From Spinacia oleracea (taxonomy: Eukaryota; Streptophyta; Magnoliopsida; Caryophyllales; Amaranthaceae): DNA of 64,000 nt. A program made the translations under genes and the position numbers. The stretch lies in contig NC_079487.1 of the NCBI RefSeq assembly GCF_020520425.1, positions 105,000,141 to 105,064,140 of the forward strand. The letters are read 5' to 3'. Of the stretch, positions 14,297-37,773 are shown piece by piece (the first letter of the stretch is position 1; every line of letters starts with the position of its first letter). The notes under the pieces were generated by a model that worked only from the letters and a program-made list of their open reading frames with translations, searched no databases and was not told the DNA's origin.

Positions 14297-14812
14297 GGGC
14301 AAAATTACCGTGCCTTCGTGTACCAATGAGGACGTGACACATGGCACGTATTGCGCCCCCTAAGCAGAAATCATACGAAGTCTACTCCGAGGCATGAGTA
14401 TTAATCTAGGTATCTACAATGTATGTATTTAAGTGTGTATAAATGTATGTATAACACCTATACCTGGAAAGGGGCTTAATTAGTATGTATCCCAAGTGAA
14501 TGACTAAGCACAATAGGCCCAAACAGCCCACTATTGCCAAAAGAGACCAGAGAATTGTAAGGAGAAAGGACACGTGTCCTCCTCCCATTCCCCAGCCAAT
14601 CATGTAAGGGGAATATTAGGTCATTCCCCCAAAAACCTAGTACTATAAATATTCCCACTTCCCTAGAAAAAGGGGTCACAATCAATACATTCTAGAGCAA
14701 TTGCTGCTCTGCCTTCTCTCTACTTTCTCTCTCTATAAAAATACAATCTTGTTTAATCTGTAAAAGTTACCAAGAAACCTCCCAGGTATCTCACCGGAAA
14801 AACCCCACAACA
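14291..14812 (+). repeat. 5' LTR (522 bp)
   Basis: Starts TGTTG and ends CAACA. It contains a TATA-like CTATAAATATTCC near 14643. Directly after it comes the primer-binding-site-like TGGCGCCGTCTGTGGGGA. It is almost identical to the 3' LTR. Confidence 0.95.
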
Positions 14813-14843
14813 TTTGGCGCCGTCTGTGGGGAGGTACGGTAAC

Positions 14844-17800
14844 ATGGAAGATCAACGACAGGACAACGATGCTGGGCGGCCTACACGCGTAGAGCGGCCA
14901 CCCCTCGAAAGAGAAATGCCGACTGAACATCATACGCCGGCCACAAGAATCACTGAAGATGCCGCACGTACATTTGCGGCCGGGCACACCCCTCGTCACA
15001 CTGCCGAGGTAGAGGTGCTCAGCGAGGAGGACGACCAGGCCAATCGCACCCCTCCTGGAGGACACCTGGATCCTCGGGTGGATACGGTAATAGAGGAGAA
15101 CCCTGATATGCCTGTCTCTGTGGGTGCTCTTCGGGCTATTTTGGCTGAGTTCCAAGCTGATGTAGGGAAGACAGTTAATGCTGAGGTACAGAAGAGTATG
15201 CTGATTTACACCACTGCTGTGGCTGCAAATCATGAGAGGCCGGCAAGCAATAGGCCAACACTTTCTTTACGCCCCCCAAATGTCTGGACCAGGCTGACAG
15301 GCGAGGACCTAAGGAGACAGCCGCCAACAAGTCAGCCAAATCAGACCATGTCTTACCTACCACGCCGAATGCCACGGCGGCTGGTCGGAGAAACGTCCCG
15401 AGGACGTGAGCAGCCACGCGCAGAGCAGTTGCCCGACTCTGAGTCGGAACTTTCTGACACCGGGTCAACCCCCGTCATGCCGGATAGACCTCTCCCTCAT
15501 CCAACTTATACGCATCTGAGCCAGGCACGTCCAGGGGCCACCCGTCCAACCCGTCAAACTCGCGGACGCGAGTCCTCCCTGCGGCTACCTTACTCCAGGC
15601 GTCAAGACCCTGTATCTCACATTCAGGAGGGGGTGTCCAACATGGCCCTAGGGCACACCACCCCTTTTGCAGACTCTATCATGAGAGCCCCGAGGGAACC
15701 CAAAGTCAAGCCGCCCAACATTGATGCTTACGATGGTACCACAGATCCGGACATGCACCTCTTGGTTTACCGGCATCACATGTATGTCCAAGGAACAACT
15801 GACTCAACTTGGTGTAAGTATTTCCCGGGCACACTCAAAGGAGTAGCCTCTAAGTGGTTCGAGAGACTTCCAGCCGGAACTATTCGCTCTTTTTCGGAGC
15901 TCGAGCTATTGTTCTCTACTCGGTTCATGGCTCACAAGGAAGAGAAGAAGACGAGCATGCATCTGAGTAGGATTCAGCAAGGGAAGGACGAGTCCCTGAG
16001 GAGTTATGTGAAGAGATTCAATCTAGAGGCAGGGCAAATTCCGGATTTGCCAGATGGTGTTGCATTCGATAACTTCATTCGAGGGCTTAAAAAGGGCTCT
16101 TTCAAGTTTGATCTGGTAAAGAAAAGCGTCCGAACAATGGCAGAAGTGCTGGATGAGGCGGAGGCCTTCATTCATGCAACAGAGATTTGCAGCGTCCCGA
16201 AAGACCCCAGAGGAAGTGATAACGCCGAGCTAGCGGCAAAAAAGGAGAAATTTGAAAAGAAGAACCGGCCTAACGGGACGTGGGCTATTGCAAAAGAATC
16301 AGACAGGGCCCCCGGAGCGGCAGGTCAGAAACGGCCCAGAACTTATGATCGGGAGCGTTTCGAGTATAACACAGACATGTACACAATCCTGATGGACGTC
16401 GGGTCCAAATATGACATTGATCGTCCATTTCCCATGAAGTCACCACCAGAAAGTAGGGACCCCAAACTGTACTGTCACTTTCACAGTGACATTGGGCATG
16501 ACACCAATGAATGTAAGAGCTTGAAAAGGGCATTGGATGGCCTAGCCACCAAGGGGTTCTTAAAAAGTTATATCAGCAGGAACACGGGAGGTTCTGGCAA
16601 ACCCTTCTACAAGAAAAACAAATCCCCTCCCTCGGAGAAAGATGGGAATCGTACCGACCCAGAGTGCGTGGCAGTCATCTCAGGAGGATTGGCCGCCGGC
16701 GGGCCGACCATGAGGGGCCAGAAGGATTATGCCAAGCGATTGGGGCAAGTGATGCTGTCCGGCAAGGCCACAGTTGACCCGTTTCCGAAAGTTGAAATCG
16801 GCGAGGCCGACCGTGGGAAAATCTCCACCCCGCATGACGATCCTTTGGTAATTGAGTTAAAAGTTGCTAACCTGAGGGTTAGGCGTATTTTGGTTGATAC
16901 AGGAAGTTCGTCGGACATAATTAGTCTAGAGTGCTTGAATCGGCTGCAACATGATCCCTCAAAGATTGAGAAAATCCACTATCCCATTATAGGCTTCGGA
17001 GGTAGTGTCATCCACCCAGTCGGCATAATTACCCTTCCTCTGAGGATGGGAAATAAAAAGGAATCTCGGCAAATGGATGTCCGTTTTCTCATAGTGAAAG
17101 ATCTGACGGCATATAACATCATCTTGGGGCGTCCCACGTTGAACAGGGCAAAGGCTGTCATTGTGACTCATCTGATGCTTCTTAAGATCATTTGTGACGA
17201 TGGGAGCGTCAGCACTATACATGGTGACCAGCAACAAGCTAGAGATTGCTACCTAACCACCTTGAGTCCAGAAGCATGGGGGACGGGTGAAGAGAAAGGG
17301 ACGTCGAGCAACAAACGAAAATGTGGCGACACGCAACCCAAGGTCGTCAAAGAAACATTAACTATCTCAGCAGGGCACATGGAAGAGAGACGCCCAGAGC
17401 CTGTTGGGGCCCATTTCAATGTGGTTTTAAACACAGACAAACCTGACAGAGTAGTGCCCATCGGGATTTCTCCTGACGACCCGCTGGCGGCAGAATTGGT
17501 CCACCTTTTGAGAGAATTTGAAGATATCTTTGCTTTCACGGTGGACGAAATGCCGGGTATTGACCCTGCTGTGGCCGTCCATAAGCTGAATGTGGACCCA
17601 AACGTTAAACCGGTTCGTCAGAAGAAAAGGAACCATGGGGAAGATAGAAATCAGGCGGCAGCCGCGGAAATACAGAAGTTGATGGAGGCTGGGTTCGTCA
17701 GGCCTAGTCAGTACCCCGACTGGGTTGCTAATGTGGTCCTCGTCAAAAAACCTAATGGTACCTGGAGAATGTGTGTTGATTACACCAACCTCAATAGGGC

Positions 17801-20606
17801 ATGTCCAAAGGACAGTTTCCCATTGCCCAAGATTGACCGGCTCGTCGACTCTACAGCGGGGCATGCCATGATGAGCTTTATGGATGCCTACTCAGGGTTT
17901 CACCAGATTCCGTTGTGGCCTGACGACCAGGAGAAAACGTCATTTGTTACTGAACAAGGCCTTTACTGCTACAAGGTGATGCCGTTTGGGTTAAAAAATG
18001 CACCGGCCACTTTTCAGCGTCTTATTAACACTGTGTTCATTAAGCAGCTCGGCAGGAATATTGAAGCTTACATTGACGATATGATCGTAAAAAGTAAGCT
18101 GAGGGCGGCGCATATAACTGATCTCAGAGAGACATTTGAGACTATTCGAGCTTACAACATGAGGTTGAATCCTAAGAAGTGTGTGTTCGGGGTGACGGCA
18201 GGCAAATTCTTAGGTTTCTTGATTGATGAAAGAGGAATTGAAGCCAACCCAGACAAAATCCAGGCAGTAATTGATATGAGCTCACCAAAGACAGTGAAGG
18301 AGGTCCAGCGGCTCACAGGTTGCTTGGCCGCCCTGGGCAGATTCCTTTCCAGGGCTGGAGACAAGTGCCACTACTTTTTTAGATCTGTCAGAAAGAAGGC
18401 CAAGTTTGAATGGTCGGACGAGGCCGAGGCGGCATTGGTCAGATTAAAGGAGCACTTACACACCTTGCCTCGTCTTGTTAGTCCCTTGCTAGGAGAGACT
18501 TTGTACATGTATCTCGCCGTGTCCGAGCACTCGTTGAGTGCCGTTCTACTGACAGAGAGGGAGGGAATACAGATGCCGGTATACTTTGTCAGTCATGTTC
18601 TTCAAAATGCTGAAGTTAGATATCCTACAGTGGAAAAGTTTGGCTTAGCTCTGTTCATGGCCAGCAAAAAGCTCCGTCCTTATTTCTTAGCTCACAAAAT
18701 AGTGATCTACACCGATCAGCCGCTCAAACTGCCCTTCACAAAGCTGGAGGCGTCAGGACGAATGCTGAATTGGGCAATAAAGCTGAACGCCTTTGATATC
18801 ACCTATGAGCCGAGGAAAGCTGTCAAGGGGCAGGCATGTGCCGACTTCATTGTTGAAATGACGAGGCCAGACTTTGCCAAGAATACAAGCACAGTGTGGA
18901 CAGTGTATGTAGACGGCTCATCCACACAGAATGGATGTGGAGCAGGGATAATCTGTCACTCCCCAGAAGGAGATACTTTTGAATATGCTATGCGATTTAA
19001 CTTCCAGGCGTCAAATAATGAAGCCGAATATGAAGCCCTGCTTTGTGGCATTAAAATGTGTAAGGCGGCAGGTGCCGAGGAGATTGTAGCACTATCTGAC
19101 TCCCAACTGATTGTGAGCCAAGTTAATGGGACCTACGAAGCTAGGGATCCGACTATGGTCAAATACATGCAGGCCGTCCATCAGGAAGTAGAGCCACTGA
19201 AAAGTTTTGAAGTAAGGCAAGTCCCTCGCTCGGAAAATAACCAAGCTGATGCCCTGTCAAAGTTGGCAAGTTCCGCGTCTTGTGATACCCCTCGGCACGT
19301 GTTCTGGGAGGTAAAAGAGCACAAAAGTGTTGAGCAAATGGAAGTGGAAACTCTTGACAGAGCGTCCACATGGATGGATGACATAGTAAACTTCAAAATG
19401 AATGGAGTCTTGCCCGAAGACTCAAGGGAAGCGGCAAAACTTCAAAAGAAATGTTCTTGGTTTGAAATGTGGAACGGCACCCTCTACAAAAAGGCCTACT
19501 CCCGTCCTTTGTTAAGATGTGTAACACCTGAGAAGGGGCAGGAAATTTTAGAAGACCTTCATCAGGGGTTGTGCAGCTCGCATATTGGTGGAAGGGCTTT
19601 GGCTGAAAAGGCACTTCGAACCGGCTATTACTGGCCGACCCTTAAGGAGGACGCAATCTCACTGGTCAAGAAGTGTGACAAATGTCAGCGCTTTTCTCAC
19701 CTAATACATCAACCGGCACGAGTTCTGACGCCCATTATAAGCCCAATTCCATTTGCTAAATGGGGGATGGATCTCCTAGGCCCATTCACGACCGCACCAG
19801 GAGGAAGGCGTTATGTCATCGTTGCCGTAGATTACTTCACCAAATGGGTGGAGGCAGAAGCGCTCAAAAACATAAAAACTGCTGATGTGAGAGAATTCAT
19901 TTGGAAGAACATCATGACTCGCTTTGGGATTCCACAGGCTATAGTCTTCGATAATGGGCCCCAGTTTGAGACGCCTAAGCTGAAAGAGTGGCTGGCAGAT
20001 CACGGTATACACACCTGTTTTGCATCAGTCGGACGACCCCAAGCCAATGGTCAGGTTGAGGCGTTCAACAAAATTATCTCTGAAGGAATTAAAAAGAAGC
20101 TTGACGAAGCCAAAGGTCTATGGGCTGATGAGCTGCCAAATGTCTTATGGTCCATCCGCACCACGGCTAAGAATTCAACCGGTGAAACACCCTTCTTGCT
20201 AGCCTATGGCGCCGAGGCTGTCCTACCCATAGAAATGTGTGAGCCAACGTTGAGAGTCATGCTGTATGACGAAAATGCTAACTGGGAGACAATGAAAGCA
20301 GCCTTGGACTTTCTGCCCGAGGTTAGAGGAAATGCAGCGCTCAGGCAACAGCTGTACAAGATAAGGATGGCAAGAGAATACAACAAGAGAGTCTCTAATA
20401 GAGTGCTCAAAGTGGGAGATTTTGTCCTCAGAAAAATGGAGTCCACAGGACGAGCAAATGAACAAGGTAAGCTGACGCCCACTTGGGAGGGACCTTACGA
20501 GATCTATGATGAAGTTAGAGATGGAACCTACCGCATTCAAGACATGCAAGGCCGCCCTATTTCACGCACTTGGAATGCCGACAACCTCAAGAAATATTTC
20601 TTCTAA
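14844..20606 (+). CDS. LTR element gag-pol polyprotein (one frame)
   Basis: One frame of about 1,920 residues from the first Met after the primer-binding site. Parts in order: gag, with the conserved capsid-like block around residues 300-470 and a short Cys/His region near 550; aspartic protease around 670-770; reverse transcriptase around 940-1130; RNase H to about 1330; a second plant-type RNase H around 1360-1500; then integrase with its zinc-binding and core regions from about 1590 to 1800. Fusion of gag and pol in one frame is usual for this group. It is treated as an element part, not a host gene. Confidence 0.92.
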   Translation: MEDQRQDNDAGRPTRVERPPLEREMPTEHHTPATRITEDAARTFAAGHTPRHTAEVEVLSEEDDQANRTPPGGHLDPRVDTVIEENPDMPVSVGALRAILAEFQADVGKTVNAEVQKSMLIYTTAVAANHERPASNRPTLSLRPPNVWTRLTGEDLRRQPPTSQPNQTMSYLPRRMPRRLVGETSRGREQPRAEQLPDSESELSDTGSTPVMPDRPLPHPTYTHLSQARPGATRPTRQTRGRESSLRLPYSRRQDPVSHIQEGVSNMALGHTTPFADSIMRAPREPKVKPPNIDAYDGTTDPDMHLLVYRHHMYVQGTTDSTWCKYFPGTLKGVASKWFERLPAGTIRSFSELELLFSTRFMAHKEEKKTSMHLSRIQQGKDESLRSYVKRFNLEAGQIPDLPDGVAFDNFIRGLKKGSFKFDLVKKSVRTMAEVLDEAEAFIHATEICSVPKDPRGSDNAELAAKKEKFEKKNRPNGTWAIAKESDRAPGAAGQKRPRTYDRERFEYNTDMYTILMDVGSKYDIDRPFPMKSPPESRDPKLYCHFHSDIGHDTNECKSLKRALDGLATKGFLKSYISRNTGGSGKPFYKKNKSPPSEKDGNRTDPECVAVISGGLAAGGPTMRGQKDYAKRLGQVMLSGKATVDPFPKVEIGEADRGKISTPHDDPLVIELKVANLRVRRILVDTGSSSDIISLECLNRLQHDPSKIEKIHYPIIGFGGSVIHPVGIITLPLRMGNKKESRQMDVRFLIVKDLTAYNIILGRPTLNRAKAVIVTHLMLLKIICDDGSVSTIHGDQQQARDCYLTTLSPEAWGTGEEKGTSSNKRKCGDTQPKVVKETLTISAGHMEERRPEPVGAHFNVVLNTDKPDRVVPIGISPDDPLAAELVHLLREFEDIFAFTVDEMPGIDPAVAVHKLNVDPNVKPVRQKKRNHGEDRNQAAAAEIQKLMEAGFVRPSQYPDWVANVVLVKKPNGTWRMCVDYTNLNRACPKDSFPLPKIDRLVDSTAGHAMMSFMDAYSGFHQIPLWPDDQEKTSFVTEQGLYCYKVMPFGLKNAPATFQRLINTVFIKQLGRNIEAYIDDMIVKSKLRAAHITDLRETFETIRAYNMRLNPKKCVFGVTAGKFLGFLIDERGIEANPDKIQAVIDMSSPKTVKEVQRLTGCLAALGRFLSRAGDKCHYFFRSVRKKAKFEWSDEAEAALVRLKEHLHTLPRLVSPLLGETLYMYLAVSEHSLSAVLLTEREGIQMPVYFVSHVLQNAEVRYPTVEKFGLALFMASKKLRPYFLAHKIVIYTDQPLKLPFTKLEASGRMLNWAIKLNAFDITYEPRKAVKGQACADFIVEMTRPDFAKNTSTVWTVYVDGSSTQNGCGAGIICHSPEGDTFEYAMRFNFQASNNEAEYEALLCGIKMCKAAGAEEIVALSDSQLIVSQVNGTYEARDPTMVKYMQAVHQEVEPLKSFEVRQVPRSENNQADALSKLASSASCDTPRHVFWEVKEHKSVEQMEVETLDRASTWMDDIVNFKMNGVLPEDSREAAKLQKKCSWFEMWNGTLYKKAYSRPLLRCVTPEKGQEILEDLHQGLCSSHIGGRALAEKALRTGYYWPTLKEDAISLVKKCDKCQRFSHLIHQPARVLTPIISPIPFAKWGMDLLGPFTTAPGGRRYVIVAVDYFTKWVEAEALKNIKTADVREFIWKNIMTRFGIPQAIVFDNGPQFETPKLKEWLADHGIHTCFASVGRPQANGQVEAFNKIISEGIKKKLDEAKGLWADELPNVLWSIRTTAKNSTGETPFLLAYGAEAVLPIEMCEPTLRVMLYDENANWETMKAALDFLPEVRGNAALRQQLYKIRMAREYNKRVSNRVLKVGDFVLRKMESTGRANEQGKLTPTWEGPYEIYDEVRDGTYRIQDMQGRPISRTWNADNLKKYFF

Positions 20607-23739: not shown

Positions 23740-24670
23740 GTCATCTATCGCAAGTCACTCACCATGTAGTGGCTCGTCATTTAAAAGGACGCCCGTCTTA
23801 AAAATGACGAGGCGTACCTCATCGATCACAAGTCACTCACAAGATAGTGGCTCGTCATTTAAAAGGACGCCCGTCTTATAAATGACGAGACGTACCTCAT
23901 CAATCACAAGTCACTCACAAGATAGTGGCTCGTCATTAAAAAGGACGCCCGTCTTAAGAATGACGAGGCGTACCTTATCAATCACAAGACACTCACAAGA
24001 TAGTGGCTCGTCATTAAAAAGGACGCCCGTTTTAAAAATGACGAGGCGTACCTTATCAATCACAAGTCACTCACAAGATAGTGGCTCGTCATTAAAAAGG
24101 ACGCCCGTTTTAAAAATGACGAGGCGTACCTTATCAATCACAAGACACTCACAAGATAGTGGCTCGTCATTAAAAAGGACGCCCGTTTTAAAAATGACGA
24201 GGCGTACCTTATCAATCACAAGTCACTCACAAGATAGTGGCTCGTCATTAAAAAGGACGCCCGTTTTAAAAATGACGAGGCGTACCTTATCAATCACAAG
24301 TCACTCACAAGATAGTGGCTCGTCATTAAAAAGGACGCCCGTCTTAAAAATGACGAGGCGTACCTTATCAATCACAAGTCACTCACAAGATAGTGGCTCG
24401 TCATTAAAAAGGACGCCCGTCTTAAAAATGACGAGGCGTACCTTATCAATCACAAGTCACTCAATAAATAGTGGCTCGCCATTAAAAAGGACGCCCGTCT
24501 TAAAAATGACGAGGCGTACCTTATCAAGTGCAAGTCAATCGCAGAAAAGTGGCTCGTCATTAAAAAGGACGCCCGTCCCAAAAATGACGAGGCGTACCCT
24601 ATCAATCACGAGTCACTTGAAAAAACACTAACTAAGGGGCCCGTCAATAAAAAGTGACGAGGCCTACCTT
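23740..24670. repeat. 78-bp tandem array (about 12 units)
   Basis: Unit: AGTGGCTCGTCATTAAAAAG, then GACGCCCGT...AAAATGACGAGGCGTACC, then a TCAATCACAAGTCACTCACA-type spacer; period 78 bp, about 12 copies, highly uniform in the middle and diverged at both ends. Since 78 is divisible by three, it creates a false 249-aa plus-strand frame. The array lies between two antisense coding blocks, where an intron would be. GGCTCGTCAT and ATGACGAGGC within each unit are inverted, so each unit can form a hairpin. Confidence 0.92.
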
Positions 24671-24787
24671 AGCAAACACGGGTCAGATATCAGGATATCG
24701 GCTCGTCACTAAAAAGACGTCCACTGTAGACGCTGGACGGGAGAAGTTTAACTTGCAAAAAAAAACGACAACCTAAGAGAATACTCA

Positions 24788-26003
24788 CCTTCTCCTCCAA
24801 CTCGGCCTTGGCCTTCTGCATCTTGGCCTCATAGATGTCCGCCATCCAATCGGTCATATCGCCCTTCCCAATATCCGCCGCCGATAGCTTGCTCATTCCT
24901 TCCTCTGTGAACAAAAGAAATCCAAAGTTAGAAAAAATGAATAGACCAACGCGGAACGGCACATAAATTGGCATACAACCTCGAGTCATGGAATATCCTA
25001 AGCCTACGGCCGCTAGAAAGGCCTCGTTCCGAAACTGGCTAATGTGCGGCAACCACTCGGCCGGCACATGGAAACTCTTATCCACTGTTAAGTGGTAAGT
25101 GTTGGCCCTGAACAGGACCATTATCTGATCCCACTCTTCGGCAGTAAGGGGGGGAAGGGGCTCGTCACGATCCATGAAGTTGGCGTCACAGTTCCAACGG
25201 CTCATTCTCTCATACATCTCCTGGTCGTCAGTGTAAAACACGACCCACCTCTTCCTCCACATATGCCACTTGCTGAGCTTGCCGACCACTGTCTGGTAGG
25301 TACCACGGCTGCTCAGATTAAACCACCCTTTGGCGGCACTGGGGGAACGAGAGAGGGAGACCAGATGCAGAAAGGCGTTGAAGGACGGCTCCACGTCGTT
25401 CAGTGCACATTTGGCAATGTAGCCAAAGATATCCGCCCATGAGTTGGGGGTCAGCTGGGCCACCCCAATATTGAAACCATCTAACACCTCCACAACGAAG
25501 GGGTGTGGAGGGAATCTCATGCCGAGTTTGATTGACGCGGCATACACAGGGAATTCTCCCTCGGCAAGCAGGCTGACGGTCGAGTCCAGACCGGCCGGCA
25601 CGCGCATTTGGTACCCTTCCCCCACGCAGAGGTCATCCCTCATCTTGGCTCCATGCCTGTCTAGCCACCGCATCCAGCCCACGTCTGGGTGAATCTCTGA
25701 CGGAAGCAATTGGGCCTCCTCCCGTCCTCTGGGCCTAATAAGCTGGGGAGCAGCTTCTTGTTCCTCGGCGGCCGATGACAATGGAGCGACGCTTGGCTCC
25801 CCCACTGCCTGGCTCGCTCTACCCTCCGACGAGCTTGCCGCCTGCTCCCCCGCCTCGACGTACTCGTCGATCTCTTGAAAGAGTTCGGCAAATTCTTCGT
25901 CGACTGCCGAGGCGGTGGAAGAATATCTCTCCCTAGGAGGTGTCGATGCTTCTTCCCGCAAGCGCAGGCGCGTCGGATCTGCCGTTTGCTTGGTTCTAGC
26001 CAT
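24788..26003 (-). CDS. Antisense frame of the LTR element, large N-terminal block
   Basis: Minus-strand frame beginning MARTKQTADPTRLRLREE at 26003. After about 110 Glu/Ala/Ser-rich residues comes a globular part with many Trp and Phe (DVGWMRWLDRHGAKMRDD, MRFPPHPFVVEVLDGFNI, QLTPNSWADIFGYI, KWHMWRKRWVVFY). This pattern resembles the plant-mobile-domain/transposon-associated proteins that occur as antisense or extra genes in Tat-type elements; the link is from memory and not certain. A probable intron interrupts it near 24910-24985. Confidence 0.55.
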
Positions 26004-27149: not shown

Positions 27150-28582
27150 ATATCCAGTAGGTATACGAAGTAGTATTAAATGAACACACATAAACCGATT
27201 GAACAAAAACAATTATGCTTGTACAAAATTAACATAAACAATGAATAACCAATGAACCACGTACAAATTATTTTCTATGCAACATAAACAATTATGCGGT
27301 ACACCGTGAGTCCGTGACCATCGGGTGTCCCGTATTTCTGGAACGAAATAAAGAATAAATGTACGGAGTAATTGACGACAAATAAACAATAAAAATCAAA
27401 GTAAAATTATGACAACGAAATAAAAAAATTTGGAATTCAACTGTAAAGAAAAGGATGAAGAGTGATCATCAACCTCATCCTCACCCAACGCCATGCAACA
27501 TCATATTCTTGCGATGGAATGAAGCACATACAATGAAGCCTCCGTACAATTTGGTGAGGGTTGAGATTTTTAATGTGAGGGTTGAGATTTTTAATATGTA
27601 TATATATACACAAAGATAAAAAAAGTTTGTGAAATTTATCTTTATCGTATTAAGTAGTCAATCATGGTAAGACTCCCATATTATTTATTAATCTATCTTT
27701 ATCGTATTAAGTAATCAATCATGGCAAGACTCTCATATTATTTATTTAATTAGTTAATAATTTAATAATATGTGATGACGTGGCAATCCTATGTGGACGC
27801 TCTTATTACTCTTGAAAAAACTCCCCTTTATATATATATATTAGATTACGACATTTTTGTTTGGATTTGTCATACTCTCATTCTTATAAAAATAAAATAA
27901 AATATGCACATAGTCAATCTATATCATACGCAGTATTCATTTCGATTTCTAAGGTAACCTTAACTCTGAATTGGAACCAAGTTTCTTTCAATAGTGGAGA
28001 AACAATGAAACATACAATTACAACCCTCTCCAAATGAGTGCCTAATTATTATTTAGAAATAGCCAATAGACCGCCTAGGACTATACCAATAAAAAGGCCC
28101 AAAAATAGGTAAAATAATACTCTGTATTTTGTGCAATTCCGCTTGCATGGACCCGGTCCACTATAAGGTTACCATGGACCAGGGTAATTAAGTAATTTTG
28201 CAGCTCTGATTAGGATGTACCGTTTGAAATCACGTGATCCAAAATAACAGAATGCGCGAAACCCTAAAATTGAAATCTCTCTCCTCCAGCAGCAGCTTCT
28301 CTCTCCTCCAACAGCTTCTCTCTTTTCGAGCTTCAACAATGGAGGACGATTTATTCGATTTGAATATCGATTTAAATCGCGCAATAGAAGAGAAATTGTA
28401 TAATTATGACGGTAATATTCGAATCCTAATAACTACGAAGAATTATAGTAACTTTCATACTCATTGAGTAATTATTATTATTTTAGAAAATTTAGAGAAT
28501 CATAGAGAAGTATACGACGTTGAAGATGAAGTTGAAGGCACATCTCAGCAAGTTATGGTTGCAAATCATTGTATTGAAGAAG

Positions 28583-30025
28583 GTATGATATAGTATCTCT
28601 TAATAAATATATAGTAACTGTTATTTTGATATAGTTAACATATTATAATTGCAGTAGAGTAACTAACATATAAAGAGGAATTATATTTATCGTAGAGTAA
28701 CTATACCGTATAAAGAGAAACTATGTTTACTGTAGAGTAACTATCTCATATAGACAGGACTTATAGTAACTGTAGAGTAACTATAAAATATAGAGACTAA
28801 CTATATAAAATGAAGAGTAACTATCACATATAAAGAGGAACTATATACTGTAGAGAAACTATGACATATAAACAGGAGTTATATTAACTGTGAGTAACTA
28901 TAATATATAAACAGTAACTATATAAAATGAAGAGTAACTATCATATATAATGATAACTATATTTATAGTAAAGTAACTATAATTTATAAAAGGTAACTAT
29001 AATTTATAAAAGGTAACTATATTAATTATAAAGTAACTTCACATAAAGAAATAATCTATATAAGAAATAAACTATAGTAACTATGACATATAAAGAGTAA
29101 CTATATTAAATGTAGAGTAACTATAACATATAAATAGGAACTTTATTTACAATCAATAGAACCTGAGTAACTATGTTAAATATAGAGTAACTATAACATA
29201 TAAAGAGTAACTATATTAAATGTAGAGTAACTATAACAATCAATAGATCCTGAGGAACTTTATTAATTGTAGAGTAACTATAACATATAAATAGTAACTT
29301 TATTTACCATCAATAGATCCTGAGGAACTTTATTAACTGTAGAGTAACTATAACATATAAAGAGTAACTATATAAAATGAAGAGTAACTATCACATATAA
29401 TAATAACTATATTTATAGTAAAGTAACTATTATAAAAGGTAACTATATATATTAAATATAGAGTAACTTATATTAACTATGACATATAAAGCAGAACTTT
29501 ATTTAAAATAAAAAGATCCTGAGTAACAATATTAACTGTAGAGTAACAATAACATATAAAGAGTAAGTTTATTAATGGTAGAGTAACTATAACATATAAA
29601 GAGTAACTATAGTTACAATCAATAGATCCTGAGGAACTTTATAAATTGTAGAGTAACTGTAACATATAAAGAGTAAATATATTAACTGTAGAGTAACTAT
29701 AAAATATAAAAAGTAACTATCACATAAAGGAAACAACTATTTTTGAAAAAAACTATAACATATAAAGAATAACTATATAAAATGAGGAGTAAATATTACA
29801 CTAGGCACAAATAATATTAACTATAGAGTAACTATAACATGTAAAGAGGACTATATATATAGTAAAGTAACTATAATATATAACAAGTAAATATATTAAA
29901 TTATAAACAACTATTATATATAAACAGTAACTTTTTAAACGGTATCTTAAAAAGAGAAACTATATTTATAGTACAGTAACTATAACTTATAAAGAATTAC
30001 TAAGCTAATATTGGTATTTGTACAG
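28583..30025 (+). repeat. GTAACTAT-type short repeats filling transposase intron 2
   Basis: Nearly the whole 1.44-kb intron is a diverged array of units such as AGAGTAACTATAACATATAA, mostly GTAACTAT on the plus strand at 15-40-base spacing. Longer blocks such as CAATAGATCCTGAGGAACTT recur several times, so local duplications of larger pieces also happened. It stops sharply at the exon borders. Confidence 0.9.
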
Positions 30026-31062
30026 GTTCAATAATACATTCAATTGATACAAACCACAGCATCTTTGAAAATCCAAATAATGAGCAGGAACAAAACATTG
30101 ATAAAGAATTAGATGGCAGTTTAATTGGAGAAGCAAGGAAAACAACCGATGAGATTTATGATCTATATTGCAAACATGCTGCTATTATTGGTTTTACTGT
30201 ACGAAAAGGGAAGAATATATATAAAGAAGGAACCATAATTGTTAATGGAAAATACTTCTACTGCTCTGCTGCTGGAATAAGAGACCCTCCTAAAAGCAAA
30301 GAACTAAAAAATGAAGATGATCAATCAGATGCAAAGAAGAAAGAAAGGAGAAAAAGAGTTATGATAACAAGAACAAAATGTGAAGCTCAAATATTTGCAA
30401 AGATGAACCAAAATGGAGATTTTGAAATAGAAAAGCATGTAGTGGTACATAATCACCCATTGACAAGAGAAATAAGTAATTATCTCCACCGATCGGAACG
30501 ACGAATGACAGAGCCCAAAAAAGAAGCTATTGAGGCAATGTCAGAATGTGGTCTAAGACCAATGAAGTCTTATAGATATATGTCAACAGAAACTGGTGGA
30601 GACGACTGTGTAGGTCATACGATGATTGATCATCTAAACTACTGCTACAAGTTAAAAATGAAGCAAATTGATGGCAAGGATTCACAAACACTGGTGAACG
30701 AACTGTATGACTTACAATCAATAGATCATGAGTTCTTTTTCTGAGTAAGACTCAATGATGAAGGAAAAGTTGAGTGTCTATTTTGGAGGGATTCTATGAT
30801 GAGAGAAGATTACAAAATATATGGAGATGTTCTAGTTTTTGATACTACATTCAGAACAAATAAGTACAATCTCATATGTGCTCCATTTGTTGGTATCAAT
30901 AACCATTGGAAAAACACAATGTTTGCTTGTGCTTTCATTGGGGATGAAACCACAGAATCTTTTGTTTGGGTGTTTGAAACTTTTCTGAAGGCTATGGGAG
31001 GAAAGCACCCTATATCAATTTTCACTGATCAAGATGCAGCTATTGCTGCTGGAATAGAATAG

Positions 31063-31717
31063 GTACCTCTTCATATATTATAGTTACTGTCTATTACATA
31101 TAGTAACTGTTTGTAATTACTATAACTTTTACATATAATTACTCTTTATAATTTATAGTTTCCCTTTTTTGCAAATAGTAACTCTTTATATAATATAGTT
31201 ACTGAGTATAATTAAAAACATTAATATATATATATTGAGAATAACTATAACTATAACTTTACATAAAATTACTATTTATTGTTTATAGTTACCCTTCTTT
31301 ACATATAGTAACTCTTAACGTAATATAGTTACTCTTTCAGAAAATACTATATCTTAATTTGAGAGCAAGTATAGTAACTCTTTATAAAATATAGTTACTA
31401 TTTTGACAATATAGTAACTCTTAATTCAATATAGTTACTATTCTGAAATTATAGTAACTCTTTATAAACTATAGTTACTATTTTGACAATATAGTAACTC
31501 TTTATAAAATTTAGTTACTATTTTGACAATATAGTAACTCTTAATAAAATATAGTTACTATTATGAAATTATAGTAACTCTTTATAAAATATAGTAACTG
31601 TTTTGACAATATAGTAACTCTTAATACAATATAGTTACTATTTTGACAATATAGTAACTCTTTATAAAATATAGTTACTATTTTGTGGAACTATATATAT
31701 TCATTATTGTTTTTCAG
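31063..31717 (+). repeat. GTAACT/AGTTAC repeats filling transposase intron 3
   Basis: An array with period near 40: ATAGTTACTATTTTGACAAT followed by ATAGTAACTCTTTATAAAAT. Each unit holds the core once in each orientation, so the array is rich in short palindromes. The most regular part is 31370-31690. The same unit makes up the spacer at 33300-33560. Confidence 0.9.
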
Positions 31718-33131
31718 GTTTTTCCTTCTTCAAGACACAGGTTATGCTTGTGGCACTTGAGTAAAAATGCAAACAGTAGGTTTGGTTTATTGAAGTCTGA
31801 TAAAAACTTCAAAACCGCATTCTACAAGTGTTTAAGTGGGTGTATAACACCAAATGATTTTGAAGAAACTTGGAAATCTATGATCAACACTTTGAAGCTG
31901 GAAAAGGATGACTGGTTCAACAGATTGTATGGTCTTAAAGAAAAATGGTGTACAGCTTTAAGTAAAGATTTTTTTTCTGCCGGTATACTTTCTTCACAAA
32001 GAAGTGAAAGTACAAACCATGCTGTTGGATTTAAAGCAAATAAAAGTACAACATTAACAGAGTTCTATAGTATTTTTCAAGCTACAATAAATCGATGGAG
32101 AAAAACTGAAGAAAAAGACGACTTTGACTGTACAAGGGGAATACCTACTTCAGAGCTAAGTATGAGGGCTATATTAAAACAGGCAGCAAATATATACACG
32201 ATAACACTTTTCCGTGATTTTGAAGAAGAGTTCAAGCTTTCTGTGGCAAGTAGTGAAAAGTTCAAGGGAAATGTTGGAAGAACAATGTTTTTTGAGGTGT
32301 GGATAGAAGGAATAACAGGTAAAAAAAAACTATAAATCTTTATTTAATATTTGGAGTAGATGTTCTTTTGAATAATATTATATTATATGTAAATAATCTA
32401 ACAGGATCAAGGCAAGAAGTTCAATTCAAAATGGAAGATTCAACCGTCACTTGCACATGCAAAAACTTTGAAGAATCTGGATGGTTGTGCTTCCATTGTT
32501 TGAGAATATTGCATTTACATTCAATCAATACAATTCTAGATCGTTACATAACAACAAGATGGACTAGATATGCAAAGAAACAGATATGGAAAAGGGTTGA
32601 TACGATAAAAAGGAAGAAGGGGAAATCAACAATTTTACTGGTTGGAGATTACATATGATCAGAAGGTAATTTTTTCAATATACATTTGTTTATTTTCATA
32701 TAGTTACAATTACAGTTGATATTTTACTTAACACTTAAACTTTATACCACAGATACTATAACTTAATTTTGAAAGGGCATAAGATAGCAAAGGCCAGAAA
32801 ATGTATCGAGGAGAAGTTTAAAATGGATAATAAAGCAGTTGATGAAATCATAAAAAAGGAAGAAGAAAGGAAGGCAAAAGAAGAAGCTGCAAAGATAGAA
32901 GAACAAGAAAAGGCAAAAGCTGAAGCACAACGAGAAACACAAGACGGGGAATCAACTAATTCTGAAATAACAATTGTGCTTGATCCTGATCGTGCTAATA
33001 CTAAAGGAAAGAGTAAGAAGAGAATAAAGGGTCAATATGACAATTACAAGCGGCCATCAAAGAAAGGAAAAAAGAAACACAAAGAATTTGGATCCAAGAC
33101 ACCAAATATTCAATTATTTACACCTAAATAA

Positions 33132-33575
33132 CAACTATTTTAGTGATGTTCTTGTTTTATTATCATATACAGTTACTTCAACATTTTTAAACAAATTTAT
33201 TGAGTGTTTATACTATAGTTCTCCTTTACAATACATAGTTACTATACTGAACGTATAGTAACTCTTTGTAAAACACACAATTTTTACAAAATAACTATAT
33301 CTTGAATGTTTATATTATAGTTTTGACAATATAGTATTTCTTTATAAAATATAGTTACTATTTTGACAATATAGTAACTCTTAGAACAATATAGTTACTA
33401 TTTTGACAATATAGTAACTCTTTATAAAATATAGTTACTATTTTGACAATATAGTAACTCTTAATATAATATAGTTACTATTCTGAAAATTATCTCTTTA
33501 TAAAATGTAGTTACTATTTTGACAATATAGTAACTCTTAATACAATATAGTTACTATTCTAAAAAAATATAGTAA
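33132..33575. repeat. GTAACT/AGTTAC repeats in the spacer between the two MULE genes
   Basis: Between the converging 3' ends lies the same 40-base unit as in transposase intron 3 (TAGTTACTATTTTGACAATA, then TAGTAACTCTT...). The last codons of the minus-strand gene appear to run into the repeat. Confidence 0.88.
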
Positions 33576-36500
33576 CATTCATCCATTTCTTCATCATCAT
33601 CCTCCTTAGTTGTTTTAGTTTTGGCATTCAAAGAATCAAGAACTTCATATATTTGAGAGGTAGCTTGAGCTGGATTACCCACTGTTTGGGTAGATGTTGT
33701 TGGATCAACAACAACAGCAATAGACAAAACTGCAGGCTCAGTTGGAACAACAGCAGAAGGTTGAGGGGCAACAGTAACAACAGGATTGTTACTATCATCA
33801 AAAAGATCATCCCAACCATTTGGTAGATTCTTCACCAATTGATGAAAATCCACTAACTCATCAACCATCTTTTGATAAGTGGAATTCTCCAAAATATCAT
33901 CACCATGGCTCTGCGTTGCCATCGAAGCCTGTATTTTGAACAGCTCGTCAGCATGGATGGCTGAAACGACATCCAAATCTCTCTTCATCAACAACCACTG
34001 ACCATGAAACTCCTGTAAAACAAAATACATAAATTTAAATATGGAACATATTAGGAAAATTTAATTAAAAGTACAACAAATATTATAAGAAAAGGTATCT
34101 ATAGTATATAAATATAACTATATAAAAGGTTACTATAGTATATGAAAGGTAACTATAGTATATAAAAGATAACTACACTGAATAAAAGATAACTATAGTA
34201 AATAAAAGGTAACTATAGTATATAAAAGGTAACTATAGTAAATAATAAGTAACTATAGTATATAAAAGATAACTATAGTATTTATTGTATATAATACAAT
34301 TACTAAAACAAAGTAATGATAACTTAGTGTATCAAAGATAATTATTGAACATAAATGATAACTATAGTATATAAAATATAACTATAATATATCTACAATT
34401 ACTAAAACAAAGATAATGATAATTATACTGTATAAAAGATAAGTATAGGATATAAAAAATAACTATAGTTTATAATGACAAATATATCAACCATAAAGTA
34501 AACTTACATCAGTGGCTTTGGAGAGAATTTCTTCATTAGTAGGATGAGATTCAGGGAGCTCAAACTGAAGAATCCTAGGACGCCGACTTGGACGTCGACG
34601 GCCAACAGAGGGCTGTTCAGCACTTCTCCCACTGCTGCCAGGTTCACCTTCTTTGGAAATAGATTTTATTTGTGTCAAATCTATTTGACCATCAACAAAA
34701 ACAAATTTTTTGGAAATTGGATACTTCTCCTTCTCCAAAATTCCAGAACCATATGATGCACTCATATTTGCATTTTCAGCATGAATCCGATCAGTTACCA
34801 TCTTCGATGTCCAATGCTGAATAAGAGGTAATTGATCAGGAATACTACTGGAATTCCTAAACTTAATCCTCTGAAAATACACAAGTTGAAAAAACACAAC
34901 ACAGCCTCCAAATGTCTTTTGATCTTTGCCTTTCAATAAACAACTTTTAAATTTCACAGTTTCCTCACATAATACGTCAAGAACGTATTTACACCAATTG
35001 TATTTGGGAATCATTTTAGGATCTTCCAAAGCCTTAGCCAATCGTAAATCTACAGTCCTATTGGCTGTAGGAGTCAAAAATGTAGAAAAGGCAACAAAAA
35101 CAAACAATTGTTTAAACAGATCACCACCTTCTGTCAACAATTTGATCCTTTCCTCAAGCAACCTCAGAGGAATTTGAGCATTGACTTCTTCAAATCCAAA
35201 CTCTTTTCTCCACTTGATCTTCAAATCCAAATCAGGATTAGTAGAATTGCGCCCACGTTTAACCCCTTCAACCTCCAGCTCAGAAAGGGGGAGCATAAAC
35301 AAATCGTACACATCATAATCAGTGATTTCAAACTGCTTGGAATCACTGATAGTGAACAAAGAACTCACTCCATCAAAGCATTTGATGCACCAGTACATCA
35401 TTTGAGTGTTCTTTCGACTTAATTGAAGGCATAACAATCCTCCAAAGCCTATCTCTTGAACAGCTGCCTTTTGTTCAGGAGAGAAGTCTTTAATTAATTT
35501 ACACAATGATCCTCCTGAACATTGTGTATCAAAATTAAACATGAAAATAATGAATAATGAAAGTAAGTCAGGTATTTCAAACATATAGTAACTATTTAGA
35601 ACACATAGTAACTGTTTAAAACATACAGTAACTATTAAAAACATATAGTAACTATTTAGAAGATACAGTAACCTTTCAAATAATATAGTAACTATAGTAC
35701 ACATAGAAACTATTTAAACATATAGTAATTGTTTAAAATATATAGTAACTATTTAAAACATAAAGAAACTATTTAGAACATATAGTAATCTTTGGAATCA
35801 TATAGTAACTATTGTAAACATAGTACACATAGAACCTATTTAGAACATATAGTAACTATTAAAAACATATAGTAACTATTTAAAACATATAGTAACCTTT
35901 GGAATCATATAGTAACTATTTAAAACATATAGTAACCTTTGGAATCTTATAGTAACTGTTTAAAACATATAGTAACTATTTAAAAAATATAGTAACTATT
36001 TAGAACATAGTAACTATTTTCAACATATAGTAACTATTTAGAACAATTGACTAAATTAAATTAACACTTACACGATTGGCAGGCCATCAGCGCCAAATTC
36101 TTTCAAAACTTGTGACTGAAGTTGATGAGATTCAGGATGTGGAACGTCAACCAAAGAAGAATTTTGTAAAACTATTTGATTAGGTTCTTCTTCTTCAATT
36201 GGTTCTTTTTCAGGTACAAGCTCAATATCTTTTGTTTTCGGATTGCCAGCCTTTTTGTTCTTTTTTATAGACACAGATTCCTTAGCAACTGAAACAAAAC
36301 AATTATAAAACAAAATATTACTATATAGTAACCATTACAATCACATAGTAACCAATAAAATCATATAGCAACCATAATAGAATATAGAAACCATTAGAAT
36401 CATATAGTAACTATTACAAACATATAGTAACCTTAGAAATCATATAGTAACTAATGTACAAATAATAAGTTCTAAAATACTATAGTACCTATTGTACAAC

Positions 36501-37124
36501 ATAATAGTAACCTTTCAAATAATATAATAAATACATAAACATAGAGTATCCATTTAAATCAGATAGTAACTATTTATTATACATAGTAACTGTTTGAATT
36601 TATAATAACATTTAAGAAAGATAGTAACTATTTATAACACATAGTTACTGTTTTAAAGTTATATTTACTTTCTAAAAAAGATAGTAACTATTTATAACAC
36701 ATAGTTACTATTTTAAAGTTTATTTACTTTCTAAAAAAGACAGTAACTATTTTAAAAACATAGTTACTGTTTTAGACATGTAGTAACCTTTTAAAAATAT
36801 AATTACTCTGAAAAACTACTAGCAGTACGAACATACCAGTCACTAATAAAAATACTTAAAAACTTCGTAAAATAAAATAAAAGGTAACTATATCTTTGAA
36901 ACAGTAACTTCATGAAACACTAACCCTAATTTCAACAAAACCACAAACATTTCAATAATTCAAAATCAAACAAAAAATAAGTTCAAATAACCAGGAATTA
37001 CTTCACAAACAGGATTTGGCCGTCTTCCTCGCCTTCGAGGAGCTTCAACTGCCACTTCAGTGACGGAATTGTCGATTTCAGGTTTCTTCGCTGCCGGTTT
37101 CTTCGGTGCCGCTTTCTTCACCAT
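33554..37124 (-). CDS. Second MULE gene: AT-hook-like, DUF1985-like protein
   Basis: Four coding blocks on the minus strand: 37124-36992, 36288-36072, 35514-34508 and 34012-33554, about 600 residues. The first is Lys/Ala/Pro-rich and contains PRRRGRRPNP, an AT-hook-like motif, after MVKKAAPKKPAAKKPEID. The second is charged and probably disordered. The third is globular: FSPEQKAAVQEIGFGGLLCL, YWCIKCFDGVSSLF, ITDYDVYDLFMLPLSE, EERIKLLTEGGDLFKQLFVF, TANRTVDLRLAKALEDP. This pattern resembles the DUF1985-type front region of transposon Ulp1-like proteins, but no protease domain follows. The fourth block has a helical start, then Thr/Pro/Val-rich sequence. Phase agrees at the first and last junctions but not between blocks two and three, so a small indel or unusual splice is possible. 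Confidence 0.6.
34040..34500. repeat. GTAACTATA repeats in last intron of the second MULE gene
   Basis: A run of AGGTAACTATAGTATATAAA-type units with period close to 20 fills this intron, most regular at 34130-34280. The core still reads GTAACTAT on the plus strand although the gene is on the minus strand. Confidence 0.88.
35560..36060. repeat. TAGTAACTATTT repeats in second intron of the second MULE gene
   Basis: Units such as ACATATAGTAACTATTTAAA repeat at 20-22 bases through the intron, with some longer doubled blocks (for example ATAGTAACCTTTGGAATCAT). Confidence 0.88.
36300..36905. repeat. TAGTAACTATT repeats in first intron of the second MULE gene
   Basis: The same core with other spacers (ATAGTAACTATTACAAACAT, then TAAGAAAGATAGTAACTATT types). 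The array decays towards 36900, close to the first exon. Confidence 0.85.
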
Positions 37125-37414
37125 TTTTTACGAAAAAGAAGACCGGTAGAGTAATTTGATGCAAATGGATGAAAATAATCACTGAAATTAAATTTGAAAT
37201 GGAGAGAGAAATTCAGAGAGAAGTTCGAAAGCAGTTTAGAGAGAGAAGTTGAGTGAGAAGTTCAAAAGCCGGGAAAAAGGAAATTAAAAAAAAAACATAT
37301 ATATAATTACGAAATCACGTGGCAGTTACAGAAATAGCAACACGCAACTTCTCACACACGAAAACACAAAGACTATAATACCCTGGTCCATAGCATGGAC
37401 CTAGTTTAGTATAG

Positions 37415-37773
37415 TGTAAACCTATTTTGTGATGGTATAGATGATTAATAATATTATAAAATTATTTTGGAAATAAAAAATAATATAATCATAATGTTTA
37501 TCATAAAAATGTTAAATGCACTAAGATAATAAAAATATTAAATTAGTTTTTTCATGTGATCACTCTGCTATGAGTTTATCCCCGTCAGTGGTTATCCTAA
37601 TGTTTGCGGAAAATATTCTCCTAAAGTTTACCACTTATTTCGTGCTAAAAATTAATGTTAAGATGCACTTCGATAATTTTATTTCGAGGGATCACAAATT
37701 TAGTTATATACAACTCATTCAACACAAATTTTAAGAAATTTACGCTCTATACTTACAAATCCATTGAATATGC
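37415..37773. other. AT-rich intergenic sequence
   Basis: No coding frame, no repeat that I recognise. The last five bases (TATGC, 37769-37773) are the left copy of the target duplication of the following solo LTR. Confidence 0.5.

Follow-up and report, generated by a model that had tools for sequence, protein, structure and literature searches.

Tandem arrays of a near-palindromic core in the introns and spacer of a decayed two-gene Mutator-like element from spinach, with possible relation to VANC-type anti-silencing

Organisation of the locus

Within a stretch of 64,000 nucleotides from Spinacia oleracea (contig NC_079487.1; hereafter the window, to which all positions refer), 28161-37414 is occupied by a plant Mutator-like element (MULE) featuring two convergent genes, a transposase gene on the plus strand (gene T) and a four-exon gene on the minus strand (gene V), with a short repeat core arrayed through much of its non-coding DNA. 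The Mutator-like affiliation proposed for this location in the original prediction is borne out by a MULE catalytic domain, encoded by exons 3-4 of gene T (PF10551 2.3e-18, above cut-off). Further domains of the transposase are a FAR1 DNA-binding domain in exon 3 (PF03101 2e-14) and a SWIM zinc finger in exon 5 (PF04434 1.3e-4), followed by a lysine-rich C-terminus in exon 6. In-frame stops occur within the transposase at 30742 and 31060, and a third at 32656 is either internal or the true end, because the assigned junction of exons 5 and 6 breaks the frame; the six assigned exons joined amount to 2447 nt, no multiple of three, with 10 in-frame stops, and the frame shift at this junction indicates that the gene model is wrong there or the gene broken. 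Judged by its in-frame stops the transposase of this copy is dead, and the two-gene Mutator-like DNA transposon at 28161-37414 has decayed.

The exons of gene V, by comparison, show no internal in-frame stop before the final one. Exon 1 includes the motif RRRGRRP, which resembles an AT-hook. Pfam scans found no match for exons 1-2, and a single family, DUF1985, for exon 3 among 24,736 models (345-aa piece, E 0.038, profile positions 50-140 of 141). Pieces of exon 3 trimmed after this first match had been seen gave E values of 0.027, 0.015 and 0.0077 (the last for a 139-aa piece), the longest of them with one further Pfam match at E 9.7. Had one family been named beforehand, E 0.038 would arithmetically become ~1.5e-6, a figure to be read in the knowledge that the association of DUF1985 with VANC proteins was learnt after the scan, with VANC already in mind. 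No match to exon 3 was returned from solved structures (E up to 10) or NCBIfam (E up to 1).

The splice between exons 2 and 3 of gene V involves the array that lies between them. For the strong donor of exon 2, the in-phase acceptors end at 35673, 35652 and 35592, all within the array; an acceptor free of array sequence, at 35515, does not match the phase of that donor, suggesting that the array may supply the splice acceptor. Array units at 35590-35720 place an AG about every 20 bases on the minus strand ahead of exon 3.

Table 1. Positions of the genes, array blocks and candidate end features of the element in the window
Feature	Position	Strand	Details
Gene T	28339-33131	+	Exon borders placed by splice consensus and frame alone
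Gene V	33554-37124	-	Four exons; borders placed as for gene T
Gene V exon 1	37124-36992	-	Lysine-rich, AT-hook-like motif
Gene V exon 2	36288-36072	-	
Gene V exon 3	34510-35514	-	Start 35514, or a candidate inside the array such as 35591; weak DUF1985 match
Gene V exon 4	34012-33554	-	
Array block 1, T intron 2	28583-30025	+	35 AGTAACT, 35/35 plus; 16/41 GTWAC spacings of 20 bp, least regular
Array block 2, T intron 3	31063-31717	+	40-bp unit pairing a forward core with an inverted one; 12 plus / 10 minus; 19/22 spacings of 20 bp
Array block 3, spacer	33132-33553		40-bp unit as in T intron 3; 5 plus / 7 minus, plus the core at the V stop; 8/11 spacings of 20 bp
Array block 4, V intron 3	34013-34509		20-bp units, mostly GGTAACTATA / GATAACTATA; 1 AGTWACT, 5 GTWAC
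Array block 5, V intron 2	35515-36071		15 AGTAACT, 15/15 plus (antisense to gene V); 13/17 spacings of 20 bp
Array block 6, V intron 1	36289-36991		8 plus / 3 minus; 20-bp and 59-bp units; 9/16 spacings of 20 bp
13-bp inverted repeat, left copy	28174-28186	+	From the sequence itself
13-bp inverted repeat, right copy	37379-37391	-	From the sequence itself
Candidate 9-bp target site duplication	28125-28133 (left copy)		Exact partner 37423-37431; direct-repeat scan
Second exact 9-bp candidate pair	28145-28153 / 37393-37401		Direct-repeat scan

Distribution of the repeat core

The core first described as GTAACTAT / TAGTTAC has a strand-symmetric centre, AGTWACT, which occurs 98 times in 28161-37414. 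Lying wholly within the eight introns and the spacer (nine blocks, 4525 bp) are 97 of these occurrences, 77 reading AGTAACT and 20 AGTTACT on the plus strand, against a summed mean of 4.86 (standard deviation 2.28, maximum 13) expected from 300 dinucleotide shuffles per block. As had been claimed, the core fills both large introns of gene T, the spacer and every intron of gene V; full arrays are found in two of the five transposase introns, with 1, 0 and 0 cores in introns 1, 4 and 5 (75-87 bp). When no core is preset, the 6-mers of highest minimum density across these six blocks are TAACTA, AACTAT, ACTATA and AGTTAC.

Outside the element the flanks hold 8 AGTWACT in 54,746 bp. Equal density in unrelated AT-rich DNA, named beforehand as one observation that would speak against the proposal, was not seen within the 64-kb window, where 18 flank windows of 250 bp with A+T of at least 0.72 contain 2 AGTWACT in 4500 bp; since the shuffles and these AT-rich windows both give few cores, A+T content does not account for the core. 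The exons, said in the original prediction to be free of the core, have no AGTWACT in 4261 bp and GTWAC five times, three of them in exon 4 of gene V, but the last codons and stop of that exon stand in the edge of the spacer array. One core (33549-33555) overlaps the gene V stop codon by two bases, core and stop together spanning 33549-33556, an overlap by which the spacer array extends into the last part of the open reading frame. That coding DNA is array-free says little by itself.

Subterminal repeats of other DNA transposons are bound by the transposase, and AGTWACT might be a comparable binding site for the FAR1 domain. The transposase does carry this DNA-binding domain, but the arrays are internal, and the termini of 178 bp and 290 bp (468 bp in all), where such sites would be expected, hold no AGTWACT, leaving transposase-binding sites an improbable explanation. 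That the cores are sites for the element's own proteins is still the best-supported reading, with the likely protein being the DUF1985-like product of gene V, acting against silencing, rather than the transposase at subterminal repeats.

Pitch, orientation and linkers of the arrays

Unit lengths of about 15-40 bases had been reported for the arrays; what prevails instead is a pitch of 20 bp, with successive GTWAC motifs spaced by exactly 20 bp in 68 of 111 cases over the six blocks and by 20, 40 or 60 bp in 77. With a looser core (at most two mismatches), 20 is the commonest spacing in each of the six blocks, spacings of 9 and 11 recurring in T intron 2 and V intron 3, where most units read GGTAACT or GATAACT in the latter; Tandem Repeats Finder gives periods of 16, 19, 20, 21, 40, 59, 70, 80, 101 and 110 within the arrays. 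The pitch holds where core orientation alternates, as in T intron 3, whose 40-bp unit is also that of the spacer (Table 1), and persistence of a 20-bp pitch under alternating orientation would be anticipated if a regularly spaced protein reads a near-palindromic site.

The predominance of plus-strand orientation proposed for the core describes T intron 2 and V intron 2, in which every AGTWACT is so oriented, but not T intron 3, the spacer or V intron 1, where orientations are mixed (Table 1). Orientation bears equally on the proposal that a core containing the donor-like GTAAC multiplies harmlessly in introns as splicing-tolerant filler, or supplies decoy splice sites. The core does include GTAAC, most copies are intronic, and T intron 2 would fit, with GTAAC in sense orientation in 41 of 42 cases; in the V introns, however, it is antisense to the gene in 36 of 40, T intron 3 is evenly split (12 sense, 11 antisense), and the spacer is filled by an array as well. 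Harmless multiplication in introns thus finds no support in these orientations and appears highly improbable.

Linkers are taken here as the 12 bases beyond the first eight (GTAACTAT or a near variant), each array being represented by a single unit. They fall into two groups, a division made once the identities were known (T_in2, T_in3b and V_in3; T_in3a, V_in2 and V_in1). Within groups 8-10 of 12 positions are identical (p 0.007-0.055 in one group, 0.010-0.149 in the second, with no correction for the 15 comparisons), and between groups 3-6 of 12, which is chance level (shuffle means ~5-6). The two groups have in common only the core and the unit length, as would result from constraint on core and pitch, or from descent from a single ancient unit with linkers that have since diverged too far to be recognised.

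Neutral satellite growth, in which slippage within one intron created an AT-rich unit of 20 bp that was spread by conversion or template switching to other introns and the spacer without any function, would account for the tandem arrangement, for the 40-bp unit common to T intron 3 and the spacer, for the linker identities within each group and for the small difference between core and linker inside arrays (see below). It does not readily explain why unit groups with unlike linkers should have core and 20-bp pitch in common, why that pitch persists through inversion of alternate units, why six separate non-coding blocks are affected, or why the same element has a weakly DUF1985-like gene, the type of protein that binds such arrays elsewhere; on balance it is unlikely.

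Comparison with known transposon systems

The layout had been thought to be without a described counterpart, but a parallel exists in the Arabidopsis VANDAL elements and their VANC proteins, here VANDAL21 (Hiun) with VANC21 and VANDAL6 with VANC6 (Hosaka et al. 2017, PMC5735166). VANC proteins contain DUF1985 and DUF287; VANC21 binds YAGTATTAY, and VANC6 targets AGTTGTCC/AGTTGTAC (PMC5735166). The motifs form tandem repeats in introns and other non-coding DNA, dense and in one orientation for VANC21. On VANDAL21 the VANC21 signal peaks in non-coding DNA, namely introns, intergenic stretches and the terminal regions; altering a single base of the motif reduces VANC21 binding, coding probes without the motif are bound poorly, and VANC expression removes methylation across the element (PMC5735166). 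The same kind of non-coding region is targeted by RNA-directed methylation according to later work of the same group (PMC10398659).

The spinach element resembles these systems in being a Mutator-like element with an extra gene, here weakly DUF1985-like, in the tandem repetition of a short motif containing AGT, placed in introns and intergenic DNA, largely avoiding exons and often in one orientation, and in its degenerate terminal inverted repeats (PMC5735166). Its motif is tandem in its own non-coding DNA and, as far as the 64-kb window extends, rare elsewhere, as in the VANDAL/VANC pairs. By inspection, which is suggestive only, AGT...AC is common to the present core, the C-type motif of VANC21 and the AC-type motif of VANC6. 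The differences are several: FAR1 on the present transposase, a domain absent from the VANDAL entries of the tabulation in PMC6446971; a core of AGTWACT, mostly at 20-bp pitch and partly of alternating orientation, with core-free termini and no DUF287 detected; and two genes seen here against VANA, VANB and VANC there. Neither a 20-bp pitch nor partly alternating orientation is described for VANC motifs in the portions of PMC5735166 consulted.

The transposase itself, with N-terminal FAR1 and C-terminal SWIM domains, is of the kind found in Jittery MULEs (group 36 in the classification of PMC6446971), a placement by domains only, because FAR1 is also tabulated for half of a Hop sub-group with plant members (PMC6446971). 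Dicot and monocot members of the Jittery group are given there with one open reading frame and terminal inverted repeats of 39-292 bp or none, unlike the second convergent gene and 13-bp inverted repeat seen here; antisense second genes with a PMD domain are tabulated for several other plant groups (PMC6446971). Eudicot VANDALs carrying KIU, a VANC with an Ulp1 domain conserved in eudicots (PMC13317346), likewise pair an anti-silencing protein with target motifs in non-coding DNA, but the scanned pieces of the four gene V exons gave no Pfam match to the Ulp1 peptidase. Abermu MULEs of barley and other plants (PMC9168764) also have a second gene, ORFR, opposite in orientation to the transposase gene, and differ in their MURA-like transposase and in a main text that lacks the words 'tandem repeat'. 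Among the literature matches listed, which covered few subscription papers, no FAR1-type MULE with a VANC-like system was found.

A putative anti-silencing system

The probable reading of this locus is an element that carries a sequence-specific system against its own silencing, of the type represented by VANC in Arabidopsis VANDALs; it is favoured because of the excess of the core, its occurrence in all six blocks despite unlike linkers, the 20-bp pitch and the DUF1985 match. Under this proposal the gene V protein would bind AGTWACT cores, probably a number of adjacent ones along the same helix face; once bound across the non-coding DNA of the element, it would cause the entire element to lose host DNA methylation, and both genes could then be expressed. 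The arrays would enlarge through tandem duplication and be kept because many successive sites provide affinity and specificity for the element, leaving host genes untouched.

Several observations count against this. The DUF1985 match scores 14.4-16.6 bits against a cut-off of 35.1 and covers the second part of the profile only; exon 4 of gene V matches an unrelated Rop-like family about as weakly (E 0.065), and a match of that kind may equally arise by chance for DUF1985. DUF287, the other VANC domain, was not found in Pfam scans of the gene V pieces, and single-sequence AlphaFold2 prediction failed for exon 3 (predicted local distance difference test 34.9, predicted template modelling score 0.22). 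The termini lack the core, in contrast to the terminal non-coding regions of VANDAL21 that VANC21 also occupies (PMC5735166), and the decay of the copy makes activity of its own unlikely. Within arrays, the core is barely better kept than the linker (993 of 1116 letters against 1381 of 1610; Fisher p 0.015, for a loosely defined core and letters that are not independent): it exceeds the linker in seven of eight arrays, in two of them by ~0.01 or less, and falls below it in V_in3 (0.857 against 0.914). Inside the arrays the core thus shows no more than a weak signal of purifying selection. A search for relatives of V exon 3 gave 3 pattern matches in viral_contigs and 20 in genome_contigs, none confirmed, and transposase exon 4 had no match in viral_contigs, results that say little for a plant element, as these collections comprise viral and prokaryotic contigs. 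The spaced-core DNA pattern occurred in at least 120 stretches of viral_contigs; of the 80 listed, 76 were single matches and 4 a single stretch matched on both strands, with no arrays, and they are read as chance.

A wider proposal, plausible but tentative, is that VANC-type self-targeted anti-silencing may not be limited to transposases of the VANDAL clade, the spinach element representing a FAR1/Jittery-type version with a diverged DUF1985 protein and operator-like arrays of a near-palindrome at 20-bp pitch, in which cooperative recognition would read spacing as well as sequence. If so, sequence-specific anti-silencing by transposons would be wider than the VANDAL clade and able to travel with another type of transposase, and annotators would have a guide to what such intronic arrays in plant MULEs may be.

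Element ends and neighbouring features

The ends of the element are not fixed, because two rival exact 9-bp pairs (Table 1) emerged from a search of 100 x 70 positions, either of which may be chance. Target site duplications of Mutator-like elements measure 8-11 bp, most often 9 bp. The 13-bp inverted repeat is the only terminal inverted repeat seen; a longer one was sought and found no support, the best gapped alignment of the ends scoring 17, which is not significant given that shuffled ends average 13.3 and reach 22. Degenerate termini of this kind would also fit VANDALs.

Elsewhere in the window, an unbroken 1949-aa frame on the plus strand (14757-20606) contains gag, reverse transcriptase, RNase H and integrase domains and is, from their order, presumably a Ty3/gypsy-like polyprotein; it looks younger than the decayed MULE. 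A tandem repeat of 78 bp in 11.2 copies (94% matches) at 23743-24617 contains a plus-strand open frame of 249 aa, itself repetitive. Close to the polyprotein frame, a minus-strand open reading frame of 437 aa (24690-26003, from a methionine at 26003) with a 'putative gypsy type transposon' domain (PF04195 4.2e-11) begins MARTKQTA, exactly as histone H3 does; this start could be a histone-tail mimic or a coincidence.

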